Part shown: positions 2,921 to 26,445 of the stretch, piece by piece
Layout: each line of letters opens with the position of its first letter
How positions within the stretch are numbered: the first letter of the stretch is position 1
From: Candidatus Poseidoniaceae archaeon
GTDB lineage: Archaea; Thermoplasmatota; Poseidoniia; Poseidoniales; Poseidoniaceae
Reading direction: 5' to 3'
Length of the DNA stretch: 64,000 nt
Assembly (NCBI GenBank): GCA_949373095.1
Contig: CASIBY010000005.1
Span: forward strand, 46,955-110,954
Program-made: the position numbers and the translations under genes
The notes under the pieces: generated by a model
Seen by the model: the letters and a program-made list of their open reading frames with translations, nothing else
Databases searched by the model: none
What the model was told of the DNA's origin: nothing

Positions 2921-5170
2921 TTGATGCTCACCTCAGTAGTATTGGCTCAAGCACAAGTACCAGGTGAACAGTTATCTCCGATCAATGATGCCCCCAAGTG
3001 CAATGCTCAACGAGAAAACTGGACCGTCGGTTTAGTTTCATGTACTAATGAATCTCACACTGGATACACGTTGTTTTCGCCATTCCCTTCCGATACATCT
3101 TACCTCATTGATGAGGAAGGACGTGAAGTTAATTCATGGGAGTCGCCAGGGGGGCATCGCCCCGGTGCTTCGGCATACATGCTTGACGATGGAAGTCTTT
3201 TGAGAACTGGTAACATTGGGAATGAGTCAATCGGAAATTTTAGCGGTGGAGGCATAGGTGGGAAATTAGAGAGAATTGCATGGGATGGTACGCTGATGTG
3301 GTCATGGGAGTATTCTTCCACAACAGCAATCACCCATCATGACATTGAACCACTACCGAACGGAAATATTCTTGCAATTGCTTGGGAAGACAGAAGCGAA
3401 CAAGAAGCGTTGCAAGCCGGAAGAAATCCAGCAATAGCAAGCGACTCTCCAGGAGGTCAAGGGAACATCTGGCCTGACCAAATTATTGAAATTGAACCCG
3501 TCGGTTCAAACGGTGCAAACATTGTGTGGCAGTGGCATGCATGGGACCATCTCGTCCAAAATTACGACCCAACAAAGGACAATTACGGCACGGTTGAGGA
3601 ACACCCCGAGTTGCTCAATATCAACTACGTAACTCAGTCGGGAAACCAAGCGGGGAGGGCTGATTGGATGCATTGCAACAGCATTGACTATAATGTAGAA
3701 TTGGACCAAATAATGATCTCATGCAGGGGGATGGATGAATTTTACATCATTGACCACAGCACGACCACGCAAGAAGCAGCAGGGCATTCTGGTGGTACTT
3801 ACGGGAAGGGAGGAGATTTCCTCTACAGGTGGGGAAACCCCCAGGTCTACGGAAAAGGGCCTATCAAGCGACCAGCAACTCTTCGGTCAGCACGATGTCC
3901 AATGGATTGGAGAGGGGCATCCCGCAGGAAGGAAACATCATCCTCTTCAACAACGGCGCTGGGCGAACAACTCCATACTCGACCGTAGAGATATTGAATC
4001 CCGCACCATGAGAATGGCCATTACTCCATCCTCACAAACGGGACATATGGCCCTCTTGGCCCCATCGTGGACCTGGAGTCCAGAAGGGACTGTATGCGCC
4101 CGTTGTCTCAGGCGCCCAAGGGCTGTCGAACGGCAATGTCATTGGTCACGATTGGAACGCTTGGTGCTCTTTACGAAGTATCACCCAGCGGGGAAGTAGT
4201 ATGGTCATACACTAATCCAATTGGAAGAAACGGTTCGTTTCAGCAAGGCCTTCAATTGCCCCCTGGAAACTTTGCCGGAACGACAGCGAATATGTTGTTC
4301 AAGGGATACAGATATGAGTTATCTCACCCCGCTCTGATTGACAAAAATCTAATCCCAGGTTCTTACCTTGAATCATGGACTGATAGTTGCCCTGAGGAAT
4401 TGGCTTGGAAGTGGGACAGAGATGGAAATGGATGTGTTGATGATGGTGACGCTGATGGTGTGAAGGACCCATACGATCAATGTTGGATTGGTGACGACTT
4501 GCTCGACCTAGACCAAGATGGCACTCCAGATGATTGCGACTCATTCGTAGACTCCGACGCTGATGGAGTCATTGATGCAGAAGACCGCTGTGAAGGCTTT
4601 GATGACGGAATCGACGAGGATAATGACGGCCTCGTGGATGGATGCGATAGCCTCATTGACAGTGATGGTGATGGAACTGCAGACACCCTTGACCAATGTC
4701 CTGGAGAAGACGATTCGGTAGATACTGACGGAGATGGAACCCCCGACGGTTGTGATTCTACACCGAGTGGAGCCATTTCTTCAAACAACAACAACAGCAA
4801 TACTACATCCAACGCTACTATGGATGAACAAAAGGACGATTCTAATCCAACAGAACAGTCAGGTTTTTTTGGCGAAGTTAGTATGAGTTCAGCATTCGGC
4901 TATATTTTGATGCTGCTGGGAATGTGGATGCTGATTTACATTGCATTGGCTGGAGCTTCGAAGAAGAACCTCACCTCTCCTGAATTCATGCACGTTAATG
5001 GTATCAATCCGGGTTTAGCACAGGCAAGCCTCATTGAAAAAGAATTACCGCCCCTTGAAATTCCAAATTTGGATACGCCGCCGCCAATACCAGCTACAGG
5101 GTTGCCAGAGGGTTGGTCGCTTGAGCAGTGGAACTATTACGGGCATCAATGGATTGAAATGAACCAATAG
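2921..5170 (+). CDS. Arylsulfotransferase (ASST)-like secreted protein with C-terminal TSP3 repeats, TM helix and cytoplasmic tail; reading frame broken by six +1 shifts between ~3860 and ~4160
   Basis: Frames rejoin to ...FLYRWGNPQVYGKG/SSDQQLFGQHDVQWIGEGHP/EGNIILFNNGAGRTTPYSTVEILNPAP/ENGHYSILTNGTYGPLGP/SWTWSPEG/LYAPVVSGAQGLSNGNVIGHDWN/LGALYEVSPSGEVVW...; DxDxDG repeats; TM helix. Confidence 0.75.
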
Positions 5171-5261
5171 CGAAAATTCATAAATTATCAGATGTAAAAG
5201 AATGTCAAAACTTTACAAGAAATTAAGTACGCACCCCCTGTGGGGTGATTGAGGAATACCC

Positions 5262-5537
5262 ATGCCACACGTTGTCACATCCCCCTGCGTTGACCACAAA
5301 TATCAGGAGTGCGTTGCTGTTTGCCCAGTTGAAGCCTTTAGAGAAGCTGAGACTTATTTGGTCATTGACCCAGATGAATGCATCGACTGCGGCGCATGTA
5401 TCCCTGAATGTCCTGTCGATGCTATCTTCGCCGACACCGATGTACCCGATGAGGAAGAAGCGTGGATTGATCGGAACGCTGAAGAATCCATTGATGCTGA
5501 AATCGCAGAAGGGGACTCACCCGTCCTCGCCGATTGA
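5262..5537 (+). CDS. 7Fe/8Fe-type ferredoxin
   Basis: [18 protein letters not shown]...[16 protein letters not shown]. Confidence 0.85.
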
Positions 5538-5605
5538 AGATTCTCTCCATACGGAGTATAACCAAGCGTCATAAAGGTCGTCGTCCTCAACAAGGTGTGT
5601 CTCAA

Positions 5606-6595
5606 ATGAAAACCGATTTCTCAACTCTCCGACAAGGAAGCGAATTGCTCAAGCGTGGGTTCGCCCGAATGCAACAAGGAGGCGTCATCATGGACGTGGT
5701 TGATGCGGAACAAGCCGCAGTTGCCGAAGATTCTGGCGCAGTGGCTGTCATGGCTCTAGAGCGTGTCCCAGCAGACATTCGTAAGGCTGGAGGCGTAGCC
5801 CGAATGAGTCATCCGGACATGATTCAAGGCATCTTGGACTGCACATCCATCCCTGTCATGGCAAAGTCCCGAATCGGGCACGAAGGAGAAGCCCGTATTT
5901 TAGAAGCAATGGGAGTGGACATGGTGGACGAGAGTGAAGTCTTGACTCCGGCGGATCCATACTTCCACATCAACAAGCAGAACTATGATATCCCATTCGT
6001 TTGCGGAGCAACCGGATTAGGAGAAGCAACCCGCCGAATTTGGGAAGGAGCTGCAATGATCCGAACCAAAGGAGAAGCAGGCACAGGCAACGTAGTTGCT
6101 GCAGTCACGCATGCCCGTCTAATCGACCAAGAAATTCGGCAAATACAAACACTTGATGACCGGGGACTTGACTTAGCCACGGAAATGATTATGGAACGAT
6201 ACAGGGTACTTTCAGACCATTCAACCTTACCGGGAACCCACAACGTAACACCATTCGGCCCGATTGACTCTGTCATGCACGATGGGATTCGTAGCGTACT
6301 TGATGATGTAAACCGGCTTGGCCGACTTCCCGTCGTCACCTTCTCAGCAGGTGGCATCGCCACTCCAGCAGATGCATCGCTCATGATGCAAATGGGAATG
6401 GACGGTATCTTCGTTGGTTCGGGAATTTTCAAGTCTACTGACCCAAAGACCATGGCTGATGCAATTGTGATGGCTACTGCTCATTATGATGATGCAAGCA
6501 AAGTTGCTGAAGCAATGGCAATGATGGCCGGAGAACCAATGAAGGGCGATGAACTAGAAACTCTGGAAGTCCGAATGGACCAACGTGGTTGGTAA
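5606..6595 (+). CDS. pdxS: Pyridoxal 5'-phosphate synthase subunit PdxS
   Basis: [53 protein letters not shown]... very conserved; start chosen at [11 protein letters not shown]. Confidence 0.9.
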
Positions 6596-7970: not shown

Positions 7971-8972
7971 TCAACGACGGCGTATAGGGCCAAGACGACG
8001 CATGTTCTTCTTCTTTGAAGAAGGAGAAGTACGAGTAGAAGAAGAAGCGGTATCGTTCTTACCCAAACCGCCAAACATCAATTCACCATCTTTCAACAGA
8101 GATTGAACGAGGCTTTCTGCGACTTCATCGGATTCGGCCCCGGTCTTCATCTCTGCCTTTACTGCATTGTTGTGTTCAGAAATCCAAGATTTACGTTCTT
8201 CTACAGCAAGGTTGAGTTGGTCCCGAGCTTTGTTAACATCGACCATGAGTTCTTCGATTTTAGCGTGAATAGTGTTTGCCTTTTCATGGAACTCTACCGA
8301 CTCGAGATGATGTCGGTCACCTTCAGCCTTGAGGAAGTTACGGTGGTCAAGTCCTTCTTTGTACTCAGCCCACTTGGCATCGGCACGTTGCAATGCCTCC
8401 ACAAACATCTTGTGAGCATCGTCAGCCTCGGATTTCAAGATCTTGATCGCTTCGTCAAGGTTTGAAAGATCTACACTGACCATTTCAAACTTAACGACTT
8501 CTGGTTCCAATTCCCCGACTCGTCGCTTCATTCGCTTGATTCGCTCCATGGTTTCTTTCTCTTTTTTGGTGCTTGAGGAAGTGGTTTGGAATTTTTCTTC
8601 AAGTGAGTTAATTTCGCTCATGAGTTGTGAATATTCTGCAGTTGCAGATTTCTTATCCCCTTTCTCATTTCTTCGTCCTTTTGCTTGGCCAATCAATTCT
8701 CGGAGTTGGGCCTGAATGGTATCTCGCTTTGCTTTGTGTAGGTTGCGCTCTGCGTGAATTGCATCAAGTTCGGCTTTCATAATGTCAAGCTTCTTCTTGT
8801 GTTCTCGATATTGTTCTTGAACAGCGTTCCGTTTTTGTGCAACAGCCTTTCCTTGGTCGCGTTGTGAGTTACGGTTATCACGCATCTTACGGACCTTGCC
8901 CTCCATCGACTGGAGTTGGTCAAGAAGTTCAGCATCAGGGTTGGGTTGCCCATCATCTCTCTGCCCGCGCAT
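7971..8972 (-). CDS. Archaeal coiled-coil protein (COG1340-like)
   Basis: Long charged heptad-rich protein; paralog-like to 17409..18284; C-terminus LVQSLLKDGELMFGGLGKND plus basic tail. Confidence 0.6.
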   Translation of the reverse strand: MRGQRDDGQPNPDAELLDQLQSMEGKVRKMRDNRNSQRDQGKAVAQKRNAVQEQYREHKKKLDIMKAELDAIHAERNLHKAKRDTIQAQLRELIGQAKGRRNEKGDKKSATAEYSQLMSEINSLEEKFQTTSSSTKKEKETMERIKRMKRRVGELEPEVVKFEMVSVDLSNLDEAIKILKSEADDAHKMFVEALQRADAKWAEYKEGLDHRNFLKAEGDRHHLESVEFHEKANTIHAKIEELMVDVNKARDQLNLAVEERKSWISEHNNAVKAEMKTGAESDEVAESLVQSLLKDGELMFGGLGKNDTASSSTRTSPSSKKKNMRRLGPIRRR

Positions 8973-13830: not shown

Positions 13831-13921
13831 GGTACTGGTTGTTTGAAGGGGTTCTTCACCTTCACGCCGAAAGATGATGTGAGGGCATCTTTATTCAACA
13901 TTGAACGACCCCCCGCAATCA

Positions 13922-14440
13922 ATGCAGGACGAGCGTTTGCTGGAAGTCGCGCCCGAGGTGCTGATTCGGGCCATCCTTCATCGAAGGGAAAGGCTTGCTG
14001 AAATGATCCCAAAGCAACTCAACGCACGCAAAGATGAGAAGGAAACTGCTGAAGCATTAACCCGAGATGCAAAACAACGAAGGGACTTGCAAAAATCTGA
14101 ACTTGAAGCCTTTTCAAATCAACTCAAATCCCGTGACGAGGGTACTTCAGAGCATCAAGAACTACTTACTCAACGTGAACAATTCATTGAAAATGCCGAA
14201 AGGTCGGAGAATGAATATCTTGAGAACGAACTATTTCGAAGAAGAAGCGACTCGCGAACCAAACGACTTACTATTGCTTTGAACGACTGTCAGCGTTCAA
14301 TTGAGTATTGGGAATCCGTTTTGGAACAAGGGTTTGACCATTTGCTCAGTGATGCACGCCGAGTGAAAGAAGGGGGGCCATCCAGTTATGCTCTTTCACG
14401 ACAAAAAAAGACAAACGGAGGGTCTCAACATGAGTCGTGA
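13922..14440 (+). CDS. Coiled-coil protein of unknown function
   Basis: Intact ORF MQDERLLEVAPEVLIRAILHRRERLAEMIPKQL...; overlaps the start of the nucleotidyltransferase gene by ~11 bp. Confidence 0.55.
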   Translation: MQDERLLEVAPEVLIRAILHRRERLAEMIPKQLNARKDEKETAEALTRDAKQRRDLQKSELEAFSNQLKSRDEGTSEHQELLTQREQFIENAERSENEYLENELFRRRSDSRTKRLTIALNDCQRSIEYWESVLEQGFDHLLSDARRVKEGGPSSYALSRQKKTNGGSQHES

Positions 14441-16451
14441 GATTTGCCCTCATACTGGGTTTTCTGCCGCACAGCAGAAACAGTGGCCTTTGTTGCACTC
14501 ACACCAACTGGGAACGCTAGAATTTGGAGACATAGATTCCATTGACGCGGACTACTTAAAAGGCCTATCTGATGAGATAAAAGCCTCCATAAGCACTTCT
14601 AGAATGAGTCAACAAGAGACAAAAGCCAGGGACAGAATCTATCAACACCTGAAGCGGAATATTGAGAGGAAACTCAACGGAAGCCAGCTTCATGCCTTTG
14701 GCTCAACCCAGTCTCGCACATCATTAGGAGTTGGAGATTTGGACTTATGCTTGGTCGTTGATGCTCCTTCGCCTCGTAAAATATTGAATAAAGTTCGAAA
14801 CATCTTGAGTAGTTTAGAAATGACTGAAATCGAGGTGATTGGTCGAGCGAAAGTGCCAATCATTAAATTCAAAGACCCAGAAACTGGACTTCCTATTGAT
14901 ATCTCTGTCAACAATGAACTTGCATTGTACAATACTGAACTCATTCGTGCTTATGCCGACACCCACCCTATGGTTAGGAACGGTGTGCTTTCCATAAAAT
15001 ACTGGGCATCCTCAAGAGCGATTAATCAAGCCTTTATGGGTACACTATCATCGTATGCTTGGACTCTTCTTGCGATTGGAAGCATGCAGACTGACCCTCA
15101 AATTAAACTCCCAAATCTACAGAAAGATGCCGAACCAAATGTCCTCAAGCTCGATGATGATTACGACGTTGGGTTTCATTCTGAACCTACATCACCATGG
15201 GAACCAACCTTGGACCATGCATCCTGCTTTGTTTCCTTTATCAGGCGGCTGGTATTTGAGTGGCCGTTTGAGCATGACGTTGTATCAATCCGAAATGGAG
15301 GAACTGTTTCCCGGAGCAAAAAAGGTTGGGCTGAGGGGGAACCTGATGCATGGACATTGGTACCGGACCACCTTGACCGTCGGCTCGGAGAGCATAGCAT
15401 GCCCATAGAAGACCCGTTTTCCCTCAACCATGATTTGAGCAGAGTACTGAGACCATCGGGCTACCTAACCATCAGAGAAGAAGTGCTCAAGGCATGGATT
15501 GGCATGCTCAATGGTGCGCCTTGGAGTGAACTTAGCAAAAAGGAAGCAACTACCGAAATCAAGCAATTTGACCTCTTTGAGGATTTACGAAATTTACCGA
15601 TGGATAGAGTTAACGCAATCCATCAAGAAACCATTGACCAACTCACAAGGGCAGAGGAAGATGGAGCAAGGTTGAGCTCCCAACGCCGTTCCATAGGCCA
15701 AGCCATCCAATTCGCATTAGGAAAGCGAGATACACCGCCCGAAGGGGCAATCGAAGATGGGGAACAGGTCTCCACGGAAATCAGCGAGTCCAAATCCCAA
15801 CTTGATGAACTGATTTTGAAACGAGATGAGCAGGTCAGCAAGATTGTCATCTCATCTCCAAAAATTTCAGAAACGCTTCGGCAAACATTTGGCCGGATTA
15901 CAGAGCAGTTGGACGTCATGAACATTCCACTTCTTGAACGGGAACAAGAACTAGCTTCACTCTTCTTCGAACTTCAAGAGATGTATCCGATTGGAAAAGA
16001 AGTTGACCGACTTAACAGGGAAATTCACTACATCAAGAAACCCCTCCACGGCAACATAAAACACCTCAACAAATCCGAGAAAAAAATCAAACGAAAGATT
16101 CGCACAAACCGCAAGAATACTAAATCACTTCGAAGAGAAAAAGGCCGGCTTGAGTCTTGGATACGAATCCAAAATGGAAGTAAGAAACCGCACCGAAACG
16201 ACCAAGTTGGGAAACGTCAAAATCGAGGCCCTAAACCCAGCGATGTCAAGAAAAAAATGGATTCCGGCGAGGCGCTTTCAATGGATGATTTGAGCACGTT
16301 GCTACAGCATGGGGGAGTTCTCAATATGGGCGCTTCCAAGAATGACAACACCTCCCAACAAAAGAACAAGCGAACAAAGAGTAAGTCCTCAAATTATCAA
16401 GTCCGCAGAGGAAAAAGGGGCCAAGGAAGGCAGAACTCAAAGAAGGAATGA
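14430..16451 (+). CDS. Cid1/Trf4-like terminal nucleotidyltransferase (predicted poly(U)/poly(A) polymerase) with PAP-associated domain and basic coiled-coil tail
   Basis: FGSTQSRTSLGVGDLDLCLVV (GS-x10-DxD), PIDISVNNELALYNTELIRAY, IKYWASSRAINQAFMGTLSSYAWTLLAIGSMQ, IEDPFSLNHDLSRVLRPSGY. Confidence 0.85.
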   Translation: MSREICPHTGFSAAQQKQWPLLHSHQLGTLEFGDIDSIDADYLKGLSDEIKASISTSRMSQQETKARDRIYQHLKRNIERKLNGSQLHAFGSTQSRTSLGVGDLDLCLVVDAPSPRKILNKVRNILSSLEMTEIEVIGRAKVPIIKFKDPETGLPIDISVNNELALYNTELIRAYADTHPMVRNGVLSIKYWASSRAINQAFMGTLSSYAWTLLAIGSMQTDPQIKLPNLQKDAEPNVLKLDDDYDVGFHSEPTSPWEPTLDHASCFVSFIRRLVFEWPFEHDVVSIRNGGTVSRSKKGWAEGEPDAWTLVPDHLDRRLGEHSMPIEDPFSLNHDLSRVLRPSGYLTIREEVLKAWIGMLNGAPWSELSKKEATTEIKQFDLFEDLRNLPMDRVNAIHQETIDQLTRAEEDGARLSSQRRSIGQAIQFALGKRDTPPEGAIEDGEQVSTEISESKSQLDELILKRDEQVSKIVISSPKISETLRQTFGRITEQLDVMNIPLLEREQELASLFFELQEMYPIGKEVDRLNREIHYIKKPLHGNIKHLNKSEKKIKRKIRTNRKNTKSLRREKGRLESWIRIQNGSKKPHRNDQVGKRQNRGPKPSDVKKKMDSGEALSMDDLSTLLQHGGVLNMGASKNDNTSQQKNKRTKSKSSNYQVRRGKRGQGRQNSKKE

Positions 16452-16942
16452 GAGCCGTGCCGCCCCCTGTTTGGAACCAAGGTATTGAGCCCAAAAACAT
16501 GAGTAGTGCTGCATGTCACCAGGTTCGCACTCTATTTTTAAACGAGACTGGAGAGCGCTATTCCGATATTACTGTTCGCCACTTACCCATACCTAACTGG
16601 GAGGGGAATTTGATTCTCACCGATTCAACACCCAATGCTGAGAGCCACATTATCGGATTGTTATGGGCCACCCCATTCAAAGATGATATCGTTCGCGTTG
16701 CTGCATTTGTCATCCATTCAGAACAGCAAGGCAAAGGGTTAGGGGCAGAAGCTTGGAATCGATTCGTAGACGCTGCGCTCAAAGAGGGATACAAGCAAGT
16801 TCAACTCGAAGTCAAAGCGAGTAATATACGGGCTCAACGGTTTTATGAGCGACGTGGCATGACGGTACGAAAACACCTTGAGGGATACTACCAATCCGGC
16901 ATGGGATACATGATGCGAGGGCCCCTTCTTCACTACAGTTAG
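16448..16942 (+). CDS. GNAT-family N-acetyltransferase
   Basis: VAAFVIHSEQQGKGLGAEAWNRFVDAALKEGYKQVQLEVKASNIRAQRFYERRGM. Confidence 0.85.
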   Translation: MRAVPPPVWNQGIEPKNMSSAACHQVRTLFLNETGERYSDITVRHLPIPNWEGNLILTDSTPNAESHIIGLLWATPFKDDIVRVAAFVIHSEQQGKGLGAEAWNRFVDAALKEGYKQVQLEVKASNIRAQRFYERRGMTVRKHLEGYYQSGMGYMMRGPLLHYS

Positions 16943-16945
16943 TGA

Positions 16946-17302
16946 GTGAAAGTCTTATTCGCTTTCGCGGTTGATGGGTCATTCATGCTCCAGCGAACAA
17001 TGACGACACTTGTGGACATCGCTGGAGTAAAAAGCGTCACACTGTTTGAAAACGATGGTTTTATCATTTATCGTTCAAATGACGACGCCACAAATGACGA
17101 CGGACAAATGTCCCGTTGGATCTCTGCCTTGGACGCCTCTCCAAAATCAAACCGCCTTACCTTCATTATGGAACATGGTTCGATTATCCTCCATCGTGGT
17201 AAACACCTTCACCTCGCCGTACACTGCGGACCATCCACCAATCTTGGAGAGGTTCGTCAAACAGCAGAAACATGCCACGAAACGCTGCATAACCTAGCCT
17301 AG
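16946..17302 (+). CDS. Roadblock/LC7-like domain protein
   Basis: VDIAGVKSVTLFENDGFIIYRSN...FIMEHGSIILHRGKHLHLAVHC; size and fold pattern of archaeal roadblock proteins. Confidence 0.5.
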   Translation: MKVLFAFAVDGSFMLQRTMTTLVDIAGVKSVTLFENDGFIIYRSNDDATNDDGQMSRWISALDASPKSNRLTFIMEHGSIILHRGKHLHLAVHCGPSTNLGEVRQTAETCHETLHNLA

Positions 17303-17408: not shown

Positions 17409-18284
17409 ATGGCAGAACTCAAAGATCTTCTGAACGATCGACGAAAAATGGTTGACGAAAAGGCCACGCATCACCGCGAAATCCGTGATAGTTGGAACGA
17501 GAAAACCAAGGAATTTACCTCAAGTCGTAACGAACTCAACAACGAGGTTCGTGAACTGATTGTCCAAGTCCGTGAACAACGTGAACTTAGAGACAACATG
17601 AACGAGCGAGTTCGTGACAAGAAAAAAGAACGTGAAGATGCAAATCAAATGGTCCGAGATGCAAAGGATGCAATCCGGGGCACACAACCTGAAGCACCGC
17701 TACAATTGGACAAGCGTGGACGACCTATTCGCCCAGATACCGTTCAATCTTTGACTCGAACCATGGAACGACTTGAGCGTGAATTCGAACAAGGAAAGCA
17801 CCAAGGTAAAAACGAAACGAAGTACTTCAAGAAGATGAAGGAACTGAGTTCCAAGCGTCGGAAACTAAAGGACTCCCAGACCGCAAGCGGAGAAACTGAA
17901 GGAAATGAAGCACTACGAGAGGCCATGACCAAGCAGGATACGGCTCATAACGCTGTGAAGGAAGCTGCTGAGGCTGCTCAGAGTGCTCACGATTTGATGA
18001 TCGAGTGGAACTCAGAAGTTGACCGCCAACGTGAGAAGGCAGAAGCTGCACACCGACGATTGCGAACCTCGAAGAAAGAAGCGGATAAGGAACACAGCCT
18101 ATACATTGTCTCACTCCGATGCCTCCACTCAATTCAAGACATATTGCGAGCCATGCGAGGAGCAAGTGCTGGACAAGGCCAACGCCCAACCGCAAGTAAT
18201 GAAACTCAAGACTTGATGGCGAAGTTGCTCTCTGGTGAAACACTTACTACAGAGGAATTGATGCAACTTCAGCGATTTGATTGA
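17409..18284 (+). CDS. Archaeal coiled-coil protein (COG1340-like)
   Basis: ELKDLLNDRRKMVDEKATHHREIRDSWNEKTKEFTSSRNELNNEVREL...; C-terminus MAKLLSGETLTTEELMQLQRFD. Confidence 0.65.
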   Translation: MAELKDLLNDRRKMVDEKATHHREIRDSWNEKTKEFTSSRNELNNEVRELIVQVREQRELRDNMNERVRDKKKEREDANQMVRDAKDAIRGTQPEAPLQLDKRGRPIRPDTVQSLTRTMERLEREFEQGKHQGKNETKYFKKMKELSSKRRKLKDSQTASGETEGNEALREAMTKQDTAHNAVKEAAEAAQSAHDLMIEWNSEVDRQREKAEAAHRRLRTSKKEADKEHSLYIVSLRCLHSIQDILRAMRGASAGQGQRPTASNETQDLMAKLLSGETLTTEELMQLQRFD

Positions 18285-18327
18285 AGAATCAATGGGGAAC
18301 ACCTCAAAGACCCCCGTTAACAGCAAT

Positions 18328-19506
18328 CAGTTTAGCAAGGTGAGCCTGATGATTCAGAATGACGAAATTGCAGGCATTGTAGAAGAATATGACCGCCTCA
18401 AGTTGCGGATCGGTATGACTGCGTCCCATTCTGCACTAGACATCTGCGACGGGGCTATTGAAGAGGGCTTCCCAACAGTGGCCTATTGCAAGGAAGGACG
18501 ACACAAAACCTATGCAAACTACTTCAAAACTCATCGAAGTTCATCAGGAAGAGTCGTTAGAGGGATGGTTGACAAAGCCATTGTCCTTGACGAATTCAAC
18601 GATGTGATGATGCCCAGCATGCAAGCCGAAATGAGGAAAAGGAACGTCATTTACATCCCAAATCGGTCGTTTACGTCATATTCAAAAATCTCGGATATTG
18701 AAGATAATTTCAGAGTCCCAATGTTTGGTTCAAGAAACATGCTACGAATGGAAGAACGAACCGAAGAACAAGATTATTACTGGATTTTAGAGAAGGCAGG
18801 ACTCCCATACCCGGAAGCCATACCTTCACCGGAAGAGATCGATTGTTTGGTTATCGTCAAACTCCACCACGCCCAGAAGAAACTTGAGCGAGGATTTTTC
18901 ACTTGTGCTTCATACAAAGAATACCAAGAAAAATCAGCAGCCCTTCTTGCTGAAGGCGTTATTGACCAAGAATCCCTTGATGGTGCCCGAATTGAGCGGT
19001 ATGTCATAGGGCCAGTCTTCAACTTGAACTTCTTTTACAGCCCTCTTGCAGAAAAAGGAGAACGGTTGGAACTCTTGGGCGTGGACTGGCGTTTTGAATC
19101 ATCTCTTGACGGTCACGTCAGACTCCCTGCGCCACAACAGATGACAATGCCTCTACACCAACAAATCCCAGAGATGACGGTGGTTGGACATAACACTGCA
19201 ACAATCCGAGAATCACTCCTTGAGAAGGCCTTTGAATTGGGAGAAAAATTCATTGAAGCAAGCAAAGAACATTACGACCCTGGAATCGTTGGACCATTTT
19301 GCCTTCAAACCTGTATCGACAAGGACATGAATTACTACATCTACGATGTCGCACCTCGTTTAGGTGGAGGCACCAATGTTCACGTTAGCGTAGGCCACCC
19401 CTATGGAAATGCAACTTGGAGAAAACCAATGTCAAGCGGACGCCGCATAGCAATGGAACTAAGAATGGCAGCAGAACAAGATCGTCTGCTTGAAGTGCTT
19501 ACGTGA
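18328..19506 (+). CDS. purP: 5-formaminoimidazole-4-carboxamide ribonucleotide synthetase PurP (start approximate)
   Basis: IGMTASHSALDICDGAIEEGFPTVAYCKEGRHKTY...IERYVIGPVFNLNFFYSPL...DVAPRLGGGTNVHV. Confidence 0.85.
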   Translation, partial: QFSKVSLMIQNDEIAGIVEEYDRLKLRIGMTASHSALDICDGAIEEGFPTVAYCKEGRHKTYANYFKTHRSSSGRVVRGMVDKAIVLDEFNDVMMPSMQAEMRKRNVIYIPNRSFTSYSKISDIEDNFRVPMFGSRNMLRMEERTEEQDYYWILEKAGLPYPEAIPSPEEIDCLVIVKLHHAQKKLERGFFTCASYKEYQEKSAALLAEGVIDQESLDGARIERYVIGPVFNLNFFYSPLAEKGERLELLGVDWRFESSLDGHVRLPAPQQMTMPLHQQIPEMTVVGHNTATIRESLLEKAFELGEKFIEASKEHYDPGIVGPFCLQTCIDKDMNYYIYDVAPRLGGGTNVHVSVGHPYGNATWRKPMSSGRRIAMELRMAAEQDRLLEVLT

Positions 19507-22034: not shown

Positions 22035-25000
22035 TCAAGATTCGTAAGTGAGCCATTCTTGTGAGGTAGCATCAAAGTAGGAAAGATTTCCTTCTCCGTC
22101 ACGAGACCAGTGAACGCCGTTTTCCTCCCATTGCTCCGATGTGGCATCGATTGAAGGGAGTGACTTTTCCTCTTCAGCAACAAACTGTTCAGATGCAGAA
22201 TCTTTGGTCTGATTGGATTCAAACATATTTGAAGCCTCATCGGGCTTTCGCATAAACACAAATCCTCCGCCTCCAAGGAGAGCAAGAATTAGTAGGGTGA
22301 TAATCGCATAGAGCATTCCGTTTCCAGATTCAACAATATCTGCGACCGAACGAGTTCCATCTTCTGGATAAGCATCCATACTGTCAGCAACTCCGTCACC
22401 ATCAGTGTCAATTGACAAATTTGAATCATATTTGAAGTCGTCTTCTGCGTCGCTAACTCCATCTCCGTCCGAGTCCAACTGTAGCAGTGCGCAACCACTA
22501 GCATCAATCAGTTCACCTACGGGCGTATTTGGACAGTTGTCAAGATGATTCTTTATTCCATCTTTATCGTCGTCCTTTTGCTGGTCAGCACATCCGTCTA
22601 GATCAACGGGTTGCGTCACGGGAGTGTCGGGACATAGGTCCATATTATTCATGATATCATCGAGGTCTTCGTCCCTCTGTGAGGCTGAACACCCTTCGGA
22701 ATCTGGTTGCTCACCTGCAGGAGTCGCAGGGCAAGTATCGTTGGCATCAGAAATTTCGTCGTCATCCGCATCAAGTTGATTGGTAGCACAACCAAGAGAA
22801 TCCACGGACAAATCATTTCCAGTCCCAGGGCAATTATCAACATCATCGTATACATCATCTCCGTCCGAATCCTTTTGTGAAGGAGCGCATCCTTGAACAT
22901 CTGCAATTTCGTTTGAGGGAGTGAGGTCGCAAATATCGCTGGCATCAACGACATTGTCTCCATCTGTATCACGCTCATTTGCAGCACATCCCACACCGTT
23001 AACAGGTAGGCCTGCGGTTGTCGTTGGACAGTCATCACGGTCGTCTGTAATGTCATCGGAATCGGTATCAAGTTGGCTGAGTGCACAGCCAGCTGCGTCA
23101 ACCTGAAGGCCGAGTGGAGTGTTTGGACAAGCATCAAACGCATTCATCACCATGTCATTATCACTATCTTCTTGGCTGGAGGAACAGCCAACGTTGTCGA
23201 CCTGCTCTCCGGCTGGTGTATCTGGGCATGCGTCTGCAGCGTCGTCAACTCCGTCTAAGTCAGCATCAAGTTGAGAAGATGCACAACCGGTTGAATCTAC
23301 AACTTGTCCAGGTGGCGTACCGAGGCATTGGTCACCATTCAGCCCGCTTGAATTGTCGCCGTAGCCGTCGTTGTCTTGGTCAGCATGTTGGCTCGGTTCG
23401 TTAGGGAAGGCGTCACCGTTCAGTCCTGCTGCGTTGTCACCATAGCCGTCACCATCAACGTCACTCCACTGGGTTGAGTCGTTAGGGAATGCATCGGGAT
23501 CGGTGCCGGCTTGGTTGTCACCGTATCCATCACCGTCTTCATCAAACCATTGTGTCGCATCTGAAGGGAACTGGTCGCCGTCTGTTCCGGTCGGATTGTC
23601 GCCGTAGCCATCACCGTCTGCATCTTCCCATTGGGTGTTGTCTGAAGGGAAACCGTCCGGCGTTGTACCAGCAGGGTTGTCTCCGTAGCCGTCACCGTCT
23701 GTGTCCGACCATTGTGAGGAATCATTCGGGAAGGCGTCTCCATTAGTGCCTGATGGGTTGTCGCCGTAGCCGTCGCCGTCCATATCTTCCCACTGAGTTG
23801 AATCAGCAGGCCATTCATCGGGATTGTTACCGCTTGCATTATCTCCGTAACCATCCCCATCAGCATCTGACCATTGTGTTGGGTCTGTTGGGAATGCATC
23901 GGGAGTAGTTCCGGTTGGATTATCACCAAAGCCATCCCCATCTGCATCGCTCCATTGCGAACCATCTGAAGGGAATGCATCCGATGCATTTCCATTTGGA
24001 TTATCCCCATAGCCATCCCCGTCCATATCTGAGTATTGAGAGGAATCATAGGGGAAATCATCGATGCTGTCGTTGTATCCATCACCGTCACTGTCCTTCT
24101 GATTCAATGCACAACCATCGAGGTCCACGGTTGCTCCGGCAGTAGTGTTGGCACACAAATCTATTTCATTTGCGATACCGTCGTTATCATCATCAAGGGT
24201 AAGTGTGAAACAATCAGAATCTCCGATGAGTTGAACGCTTGCAGAGGAAAAGAGGTCCGCAAAGACACAGTATATTCCCGAAGTTGAAGGGGTTGTATAA
24301 TTGAAGTAAGGAAGCGACATGTTCTGTGCTGTTGCAGTTACTGTCGTCATGGTTGAAACTGCGAGGTTTGCCCCTCCAGAATCCTCAACGCGATATTGAT
24401 ACTTGTAACTGTCACCGGTGACTAAATCTAGACCTTGAGCTCGGACATTGTTCGTTAAAGCCGTTGAACTGGCCGAATAAGAATTAATGACAAGGGCAGG
24501 TAGTTGAGGAATGAAATCCTCAAAGTGAAGGCCGGATATATTCGTGTTGTCGCTGAGGTTGATTACCGAACTATTCAATGAAATAAAGGCGAGGAAAAGA
24601 TGGTCGTTCATCGAAGTTGGACCGGCCCAGTTGATCTGGTAACTCATTGAGGTCATCGACGGTGTAAGATACCACGTATCACTATCGATCATCGAGGCGT
24701 TGATGGCTGCATTTACGTCATTTGAGTTTGTGAAATTACTTTCCCACTCTACGAAATCAATGACATACCACCCAACTTCATAATCGGTCCCAATCGTTAG
24801 ATTGGTCAGTTCGATATCACCGGTCGTAGAAGAGGTCGTTGCAATTTCAACCATTTCGATATAAAGTTCGGCCACGTCACTATCAAGCGAAGAATTGGAG
24901 GCATCAAAAAGGGTAGAAGAAACCATCAATTCCGATTCAATCATCTGTGCCGAGTATGTGAAATTTATGCTGTGAGTCGTGTTGGTTGCATTAAACGAAC

Positions 25001-26114
25001 CTGTAGTTGAATTCCCCCAGCTCTCCGTATCATCAAGGAGCATCTGCCCCACAGAGAAATTGTAATTGTAAGTGGTATTGGCGGTGAGGCCATAAAAGGA
25101 AAGCATACCATTGGTGGTGTTCATGAGTGTGACATCGACAGATTCGAAACTTTGCCCACCACCGGGTTGGTCTGTTGAGAGTTCAATATCATAGACATTT
25201 GCTGTCCCAGTACTGAAGGCATACAAGAATACTTTCAGATAAGAAGTAAAGTTGCTGGTAGCAGTGAATGATGCTGCTTCGTTGTCTGAGCCAGAACCGA
25301 GGGAACCAAATCCAGCCAGAGAGAGAGATGAGCCACCGGCATCAGTCCACTGACCATCAATATCCCCGTTGGCATGGGTGAAGGTTAAATTGACGTAATA
25401 TGTAATACCTGAAATCATGTCAATTTCAAAATAATCTTCATCTGCAGTTGAATCGATGGAAAGGCCGGTGCAATACAAGGGGAGCATGGAAGCAGAAGTT
25501 GCAGTAGCCATGGTGTCGTTTGGCTCAAGGATGTCAGGATTAGTACTAGCGTTTCCCGTACAGTTTGTCACTGATGCACCGCCACCGCCGGTGCTGGTGG
25601 AAACAGTAAATTTGGAGAGAGAAAGGCTCCATGTCCCTGTGCCAGCATATCGTGAGATTTGGATGTAGACCATTCCTCCGTGAGGGCTGGTGGAATTGGT
25701 AGTGAGTGATTCAGGATTATTCATAAAGGAATCATCCAAGTAAGTTAGGTTCGCATCATAGAATACCAGGTCAAAATCATTTGTGACCGTTGTGCCGTTG
25801 GCATAGGTGGTGGTTGATGGGAAAGACAGTGATGCGTAGAGTCCTTGTGTAGAAGTCAAAGCAACTCTCAAGTAATCGTTGTCATCACCAATATCCAATT
25901 CTCCGCTACCACTGTATGTACTTGAGAAAATGTAGTTGGTGATATTGACCGAAGTATTATCCGGCAGGTCACCGCTGGAGTTTAGGTCATTTTGGTTTGG
26001 CCCAACGGCTTGAGCTGTTGGAGCTACAACTCCCATCAACATACCGAAGATGAGCATCAACGAAAGAAGACTGGCTCCGGTAGGGGATGAGTGTTGTTTA
26101 GGAGGCTGGCGCAT
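22035..26114 (-). CDS. Giant secreted surface protein with TSP3-type Ca-binding repeats, C-terminal TM and cytoplasmic tail
   Basis: Signal peptide, PPC-like domains, D-x-DGDGYGDNP-x-GT repeats, TM 'GMLYAIITLLILALLGGGGFVFM', tail ...EQWEENGVHWSRDGEGNLSYFDATSQEWLTYES. Confidence 0.85.
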   Translation of the reverse strand: MRQPPKQHSSPTGASLLSLMLIFGMLMGVVAPTAQAVGPNQNDLNSSGDLPDNTSVNITNYIFSSTYSGSGELDIGDDNDYLRVALTSTQGLYASLSFPSTTTYANGTTVTNDFDLVFYDANLTYLDDSFMNNPESLTTNSTSPHGGMVYIQISRYAGTGTWSLSLSKFTVSTSTGGGGASVTNCTGNASTNPDILEPNDTMATATSASMLPLYCTGLSIDSTADEDYFEIDMISGITYYVNLTFTHANGDIDGQWTDAGGSSLSLAGFGSLGSGSDNEAASFTATSNFTSYLKVFLYAFSTGTANVYDIELSTDQPGGGQSFESVDVTLMNTTNGMLSFYGLTANTTYNYNFSVGQMLLDDTESWGNSTTGSFNATNTTHSINFTYSAQMIESELMVSSTLFDASNSSLDSDVAELYIEMVEIATTSSTTGDIELTNLTIGTDYEVGWYVIDFVEWESNFTNSNDVNAAINASMIDSDTWYLTPSMTSMSYQINWAGPTSMNDHLFLAFISLNSSVINLSDNTNISGLHFEDFIPQLPALVINSYSASSTALTNNVRAQGLDLVTGDSYKYQYRVEDSGGANLAVSTMTTVTATAQNMSLPYFNYTTPSTSGIYCVFADLFSSASVQLIGDSDCFTLTLDDDNDGIANEIDLCANTTAGATVDLDGCALNQKDSDGDGYNDSIDDFPYDSSQYSDMDGDGYGDNPNGNASDAFPSDGSQWSDADGDGFGDNPTGTTPDAFPTDPTQWSDADGDGYGDNASGNNPDEWPADSTQWEDMDGDGYGDNPSGTNGDAFPNDSSQWSDTDGDGYGDNPAGTTPDGFPSDNTQWEDADGDGYGDNPTGTDGDQFPSDATQWFDEDGDGYGDNQAGTDPDAFPNDSTQWSDVDGDGYGDNAAGLNGDAFPNEPSQHADQDNDGYGDNSSGLNGDQCLGTPPGQVVDSTGCASSQLDADLDGVDDAADACPDTPAGEQVDNVGCSSSQEDSDNDMVMNAFDACPNTPLGLQVDAAGCALSQLDTDSDDITDDRDDCPTTTAGLPVNGVGCAANERDTDGDNVVDASDICDLTPSNEIADVQGCAPSQKDSDGDDVYDDVDNCPGTGNDLSVDSLGCATNQLDADDDEISDANDTCPATPAGEQPDSEGCSASQRDEDLDDIMNNMDLCPDTPVTQPVDLDGCADQQKDDDKDGIKNHLDNCPNTPVGELIDASGCALLQLDSDGDGVSDAEDDFKYDSNLSIDTDGDGVADSMDAYPEDGTRSVADIVESGNGMLYAIITLLILALLGGGGFVFMRKPDEASNMFESNQTKDSASEQFVAEEEKSLPSIDATSEQWEENGVHWSRDGEGNLSYFDATSQEWLTYES
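22450..23330 (-). repeat. Coding repeat array, ~36-aa units D-x-CP-x-TP-x-G-x-x-VD-x-x-GCA-x-SQ-x-D-x-D
   Basis: Visible tandem protein repeats, e.g. DACPDTPAGEQVDNVGCSSSQEDSDNDMVMNAFDACPNTPLGLQVDAAGCALSQLDTDSDD. Confidence 0.85.
23330..24045 (-). repeat. Coding repeat array, ~81-bp/27-aa units DADGDGYGDNPTGTTPDAFPTDPTQWS, about nine copies
   Basis: Nine successive DGDGYGDN...QW units in the translation. Confidence 0.9.
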
Positions 26115-26163
26115 AGTTCTAAGGAAAACTCCGCAGTATATCACAACTACTACGATAGGGCTC

Positions 26164-26445
26164 TCAAATTGCTGTTGGAGCAACATGGCCGTCTTTTTTG
26201 TCATCGGGCTTGCGGACGCGAGACCAAACGCCTCCCATTAGTTCGTCATGATGCCCTGAACAGTAATGGAAACGTCGGTAGGCTTCACGAAATGAGTATG
26301 CCTTCTTTCCCGTTGCAACGAGATACCCTTCAGGCGAAAGACGAGAAACTACTGTCCCTTCCTCTCCGCATCCCGGTAAATCACAGACGGGTTTGTTGGG
26401 CATATCCAAGACAGTTCTTCTATGCTTGATTAACTCTTGCCTCAT
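26164..26445 (-). CDS. Small Cys/His-rich protein
   Basis: VCDLPGCGEEG...HYCSGHHDEL; possible zinc-binding site. Confidence 0.45.
   Translation of the reverse strand: MRQELIKHRRTVLDMPNKPVCDLPGCGEEGTVVSRLSPEGYLVATGKKAYSFREAYRRFHYCSGHHDELMGGVWSRVRKPDDKKDGHVAPTAI

Follow-up and report, generated by a model that had tools for sequence, protein, structure and literature searches.

The selection of UTP by the S. pombe poly(U) polymerase Cid1 depends on His336, and changing this residue to Ala or Asn results in a poly(A) polymerase (PMC7498324, PMC4357723, PMC7470959). The same position is occupied by Arg557 in the fungal C/U-tagging enzyme CutA, and the histidine is absent from GLD-2 (PMC7498324, PMC4357723, PMC7470959). 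Introducing the histidine into CutA (R557H) brought more use of U with no conversion of specificity (PMC7498324). The A-rich 3' tails described in archaea come from the exosome (Rrp41/Rrp42) run in reverse (PMC4227792). We found no open-access literature that joins archaea, or the Poseidoniales, with an enzyme of the Cid1/TUT type.

Here we analyzed a stretch of 64,000 nucleotides from a Poseidoniaceae genome (hereafter the window), in which positions 14430-16451 (+) code for a 673-residue protein combining a Cid1/TUT-type terminal nucleotidyltransferase with a C-terminal coiled coil. We assign a probability of about 0.6 to the reading that this is an RNA tailing enzyme of the Cid1/TUT group that prefers UTP, is targeted by its coiled coil and owes its catalytic domain to a probable capture from a eukaryote. 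Its more general identity as an RNA 3'-terminal nucleotidyltransferase is very likely.

A Cid1/TUT-type domain in an archaeal protein

The fusion gene starts at 14430, where its homologues begin with the signature M(S/T)xxC..TGF, and the ATG at 14388 that would give a longer frame is not conserved among them; the frame is real and the coordinates given for it in an earlier, sequence-only note are correct. Residues 1-370 constitute a complete terminal nucleotidyltransferase of the Cid1/URT1/TUT7 type, with a catalytic palm domain (PF22600, residues 46-176, 14565-14957, +; hmmscan 1.3e-28) and a PAP-associated domain (PF03828, residues 277-334, 15258-15431, +; 2.8e-6, 27.9 bits versus a cut-off of 22.6, with relatives reaching up to 62 bits). 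The TUTase (PF19088, 2.1e-6) and NTP_transf_2 (PF01909, 6.3e-5) models also match above their curated Pfam cut-offs, so that both families against which the earlier note had proposed a HMMER check, NTP_transf_2 and PAP_assoc, are recovered. Residues 371-673 have no Pfam match.

In a PDB search with the single sequence, the best match was Arabidopsis URT1 (1.4e-33), followed by TUT7, TUT4, Cid1, CutA and GLD2. A profile of 16 family sequences retrieved TUT4 (3e-87), TUT7 (2.3e-86), URT1 (5.9e-73), CutA (5.4e-61), Cid1 (2.4e-60) and GLD2 (2.8e-52), with canonical poly(A) polymerase matching weakly (1e-7 to 7e-5). An AlphaFold2 model built with 63 sequences (mean pLDDT 82, with most of the enzyme part at 85-95) has URT1 as its top fold match (7xs4; E 3.5e-20, TM by target 0.87), with CutA also among the matches (E 1.2e-19), and all of the top folds are RNA-tailing enzymes. 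The predicted structure also superposes on Cid1 (4e80_A; TM by target 0.90, rmsd 2.4), as the earlier note had suggested examining. CCA-adding enzymes are absent both from the PDB profile-search matches and from the fold matches listed.

The archaeal proteins form a single clade with support of 100 in a tree with eight eukaryotic sequences, which are the chains printed in the PDB alignment and too small a sample to place a root or a donor. They are 26-35% identical to TUT4/7, URT1, CutA and Cid1, a distance similar to that between these eukaryotic subfamilies themselves, versus 18-26% for Trf4, which forms a long branch. Hence, the part of the earlier note's label that invoked Trf4 does not hold: as far as these few reference sequences indicate, the enzyme groups with Cid1/URT1/TUT4/7/GLD2 and appears closer to them than to Trf4 or canonical poly(A) polymerases. 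Its central claim, a eukaryote-type terminal nucleotidyltransferase of the Cid1 family on a genuine archaeal chromosome, is borne out by the PAP-associated domain, the invariant catalytic triad, the TUTases as best matches and the superposition on Cid1.

The active site and the choice of nucleotide

We surveyed the active site across 88 non-redundant homologues, with identities as low as ~34%. G91-S92 of the GS motif (14700-14705, +; equivalent of Cid1 Ser90) are present in all 88, as are the first catalytic aspartate of D103-x-D105 (14736-14744, +; Cid1 D101/D103) and the third, D157 (14898-14900, +; Cid1 D160); D105 is found in all 87 homologues readable at that position. N162, N168, K190, R196, S208 and Y209 are likewise invariant. 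The position of Cid1 Lys197 is occupied by S, L or R, with an invariant Arg two residues further on. Every motif that had been picked out by eye in the earlier note is in place, namely G91-S92, D103-L-D105, D157 within PIDISVNN, NNELALYNT, KYWASSRAIN..GTLSSYAW and IEDPFSLNHDLSR. In the alignment, the URT1, GLD2 and Trf4 rows display Ala at the third aspartate and the Cid1 row Asn at 336; we take these to be crystallised mutants, and the Cid1 row comes from 4fhx, a chain annotated as H336N. Within Poseidonia, the enzyme domain is under strong purifying selection, with a dN/dS of 0.084 between the window and locus L075, and a dN of 0.029 against a dS of 0.656 between loci L076 and L077.

H334 (15429-15431, +) corresponds to Cid1 His336, the residue that selects UTP; 83 of 87 homologues have His at this position, two have Arg, and one each has Ile and Val. 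With the histidine retained alongside the other residues that contact the uridine, the window protein is predicted to add U; since R557H by itself left CutA unconverted, we offer this as a prediction and not as a result. Arg, as in CutA, is found in L095 and L111; the Val and Ile belong to L045 and L052. Given these four versions without the histidine, a preference for U is not universal in the family, and they may differ in the nucleotide that they favor.

A proposed coiled-coil scaffold, its gene block and the history of the fusion

The coiled-coil region extends from a DLFEDLR motif to a terminal LSMDDLSTLL motif (residues 382-626; 15573-16307, +), as delineated by AlphaFold2 models, which display a long helical hairpin with a helix of ~80 residues, and by the standalone orthologues. 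It is followed by a basic tail of low confidence (residues 627-673; 16308-16448, +), with pLDDT below 50 from residue 636. The net charge is +3 over residues 371-580 and +15 over residues 581-673; thus, the extension described earlier as coiled-coil and highly basic is indeed a coiled coil, with the basic character restricted to its last ~90 residues. Since no significant relative of solved fold was detected in the PDB (the best, HlyD with E 0.012, is unconvincing), a targeting role for this region is something that we infer, and the binding of RNA or ribosomes that the earlier note suggested for it stays putative.

Profile comparison linked the C-terminal part of the fusion weakly to the neighboring DUF7121 protein (91% probability over 142 columns, a type of score that coiled coils inflate), and it does not reach the DUF7121 Pfam model (PF23435). 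The block's two other coiled coils are linked more strongly, at 96.9 and 97.8%. The C-terminal part belongs to a distinct archaeal protein family, older than the fusion, whose members in the sister family and in basal Poseidoniaceae have no enzyme attached.

The fusion gene overlaps by 11 bases at its start with a conserved upstream gene for a coiled-coil protein (13901-14440, +; 96.9% profile similarity to DUF7121), and its stop shares an ATGA overlap with a gene for a RimI-like GNAT acetyltransferase (16448-16942, +; PF00583 2.2e-13, TIGR01575 4.9e-14 and below cut-off); accordingly, it reads as a member of an operon. Downstream are genes for a small Roadblock/LC7-like protein (16946-17302, +), a weak assignment with homologues matching PF03259 below cut-off (0.011 and 0.0015), and for a DUF7121-family coiled-coil protein (17409-18284, +; PF23435 6.4e-18), which we take to be COG1340-like. 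A conserved PurP-like gene (18277-19506, +; PF06973 8.6e-75, PF06849 7.9e-41) marks the block's end. This gene order, from the upstream coiled coil to the PurP-like gene, is shared between loci, and the block, which diverges from genes for a Zn-ribbon protein, a DtxR-like regulator, a membrane protein and another coiled coil, is common to the fused loci read and their unfused relatives. A single conserved block of ~10 kb holds four coiled-coil proteins (7971-8972, 13901-14440, 14430-16451 and 17409-18284); they have similar short C-terminal motifs, and three look related in profile comparisons. Elsewhere, the window codes for a predicted secreted protein of 1389 residues (22035-26204, -) with many DxDGDGYGD repeats of the calcium-binding type.

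The palm domain was found in 111 of 171 genomes of the Poseidoniaceae (Marine Group II archaea). PAP_assoc was likewise found in 111 of the 319 genomes of the order, all of them Poseidoniaceae and spread over 7 of 22 genera (best 5.8e-17), and none of the about 148 genomes of the sister family has the enzyme. A 390-genome sample of the phylum yielded 51 strong palm matches (E <=2.4e-27), exclusively in Poseidoniaceae, with the next match at 2.6e-9. A scan of named genomes, using patterns tuned to the Poseidoniaceae enzyme family that would miss distant relatives, returned almost exclusively Poseidoniales or uncultured euryarchaeal contigs, alongside a lone record labelled Rhodobiaceae that is probably a binning or naming error. 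We found no relatives in phages, plasmids or viruses. The gene is present on the complete MG-II chromosome CM001443 and on contigs AG-404-K16 and AG-461-G23, which to judge by their names come from single-cell genomes. Contamination is ruled out by the synteny, the complete chromosome, these apparent single-cell contigs and the recurrence in 111 genomes.

The enzyme is nearly always in single copy, at one site and vertically inherited. The sister family and most Poseidonia genomes have the coiled coil alone at this locus; it begins close to the DLF.DL motif, the point at which the enzyme domain of the fusion stops. The genera g14, g17 and g18, the nearest relatives outside the enzyme clade, also have the coiled coil, preceded in g14 and g18 by a low-complexity stretch. 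A tree of neighboring genes places these three genera outside the enzyme clade (support 100) and the enzyme-less Poseidonia inside it. The simplest history is one in which the enzyme domain joined an already existing archaeal coiled-coil gene on a single occasion and disappeared again, also once, within Poseidonia.

Alternative readings, RNA turnover and known systems

Several other functions could be envisaged for this protein. An RNA tailing enzyme that adds poly(A) or, like CutA, mixed nucleotides in place of uridines has some weight, though we consider it unlikely: the close relatives GLD2 (A) and CutA (C, A) have the same fold and most of the same residues, two homologues share the Arg of CutA and two more have Val or Ile at the histidine site, and the increased use of U by unconverted CutA R557H implies that one residue is insufficient for specificity (PMC7498324). 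Against this, 83 of 87 homologues, the window protein among them, have the histidine, as Cid1, TUT7 and Tailor are described to do. That the domain is catalytically idle, serving as an RNA-binding or structural piece of the coiled-coil scaffold, would accord with its dispensability, one Poseidonia subclade having dropped the enzyme and retained the scaffold. Yet, pseudoenzymes usually lose their metal-binding and nucleotide-contacting residues, and here both the metal-binding aspartates and the nucleotide-contacting residues are invariant down to ~34% identity, which makes an idle domain very improbable.

We give still less credence to two further readings. A CD-NTase/OAS-like immune signalling enzyme producing a (cyclic) oligonucleotide is hinted at by a weak match to the NCBIfam model CBASS_cyclase_b (E 0.0031, 17 bits versus a cut-off of 200). 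However, the protein has a PAP-associated domain and top folds that are all RNA-tailing enzymes, PADLOC left it unmatched, its gene block lacks an effector, and its single-site, vertical, nearly always single-copy inheritance is unlike that of mobile defence islands. Just as improbable is a tRNA CCA-adding or CCA-repair enzyme that takes the place of the archaeal class I enzyme. The latter (PF09249) is indeed missing from all 24 genomes considered and from the window protein, so that the earlier note's premise of a class I enzyme fails for these archaea; but all 24 code for a class II-type PolyA_pol enzyme (PF01743) in a separate gene, by which CCA addition is already covered. The PF01743 head domain is absent from the window protein, whose listed sequence and fold matches include no CCA enzyme, and most Poseidonia and the sister family lack the fusion and yet must make tRNA.

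Returning to the UTP-preferring tailing enzyme, its palm with three aspartates and its PAP-associated domain would form a two-lobed active site for the template-free addition of nucleotides to RNA 3' ends, with UTP as the preferred substrate and one or more uridines as the product. The coiled coil, as the older archaeal scaffold, would partner the neighboring coiled-coil proteins and bring the catalytic domain to an RNA or RNP target. An ancestor inside the Poseidoniaceae would have captured the catalytic domain once, probably from a eukaryote, with an in-frame fusion to the gene for the coiled coil; purifying selection would then have retained it, except for the loss in one Poseidonia subclade.

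A role as stand-in for a lost exosome is ruled out by the RNase PH-family genes found in all 24 genomes, 21 of which have two or three copies. An adjacent pair of such genes is typical of the exosome core; most of these genomes have, beside that pair, a third, separate gene of the family (~280 aa). A gene for an RNB 3'-5' exonuclease is found in 107 Poseidoniaceae genomes, covering most genera of the family and six of the seven enzyme-bearing ones, and in one or two of the about 148 genomes of the sister family, one convincingly. The Poseidoniaceae RNB proteins are RNase R-like and not DIS3L2-like. The common distribution of the two enzymes is suggestive of a decay route based on U-tails, and we tentatively entertain, as a rather doubtful extension, a uridylation-dependent RNA turnover or quality control parallel to the eukaryotic TUT-DIS3L2 system, with the TUTase, on its possibly ribosome-linked scaffold, adding the U-tag and the RNase R-like RNB enzyme degrading the tagged RNA. 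A strict TUT-RNB partnership is weakened because, within genera, either gene can be lost while the other stays: of genus g12, at least 23 genomes carry the enzyme and only seven show RNB, and the enzyme-less Poseidonia retain RNB. The RNB gene lies at 3879-6263 (-) in L158 and 3761-6118 (+) in L159; a DnaJ-like gene is its immediate upstream neighbor in four of the loci read, and there are P-type ATPase genes nearby. In the window's own assembly, the RNB gene (G000:C17:43159-44252) is broken across several frames, from either an assembly error or recent damage.

These observations suggest that many Poseidonia-type archaea of the ocean acquired a new way of marking RNA ends, in that a catalytic domain of eukaryotic type was apparently taken up and attached to a long-standing archaeal scaffold. 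From a TUT-type enzyme that has the histidine for UTP selection, U-tailed RNA is to be expected in some of the surface ocean's most abundant archaea, which can be checked in existing marine RNA samples; sister lineages with and without the enzyme domain at one locus offer a natural experiment. A U-tail/RNB pathway, if true, would be the first tail-marking system of such a kind in archaea.

Among the known systems, the human TUT4/TUT7 catalytic modules are the strongest profile match; TUT4/7 have a second nucleotidyltransferase-like module and zinc knuckles, whereas the window protein has a coiled coil after the enzyme. Arabidopsis URT1 shares the His, Asn-Thr and Ser-Tyr of the base pocket, its IEDPFETSHDLGR corresponding to IEDPFSLNHDLSR in the window protein; however, it is a plant enzyme, ~27-33% identical, without the archaeal coiled coil. 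Cid1 resembles the window protein in fold, triad and the His336 position, but is a compact enzyme from another domain of life, with a Lys197 that the archaeal homologues lack. CutA is alike in fold and pocket, and its Arg recurs in two archaeal homologues, whereas the window protein and most others have His. The archaeal exosome works by reverse phosphorolysis with NDPs and has an unrelated fold, so that the NTP-using tailing enzyme predicted here would be an addition to it. Finally, the archaeal DUF7121 coiled-coil proteins (PF23435) are related to this system both through the neighboring gene and through the profile likeness to the C-terminal part of the fusion; the enzyme gives a first functional handle on their coiled-coil block.
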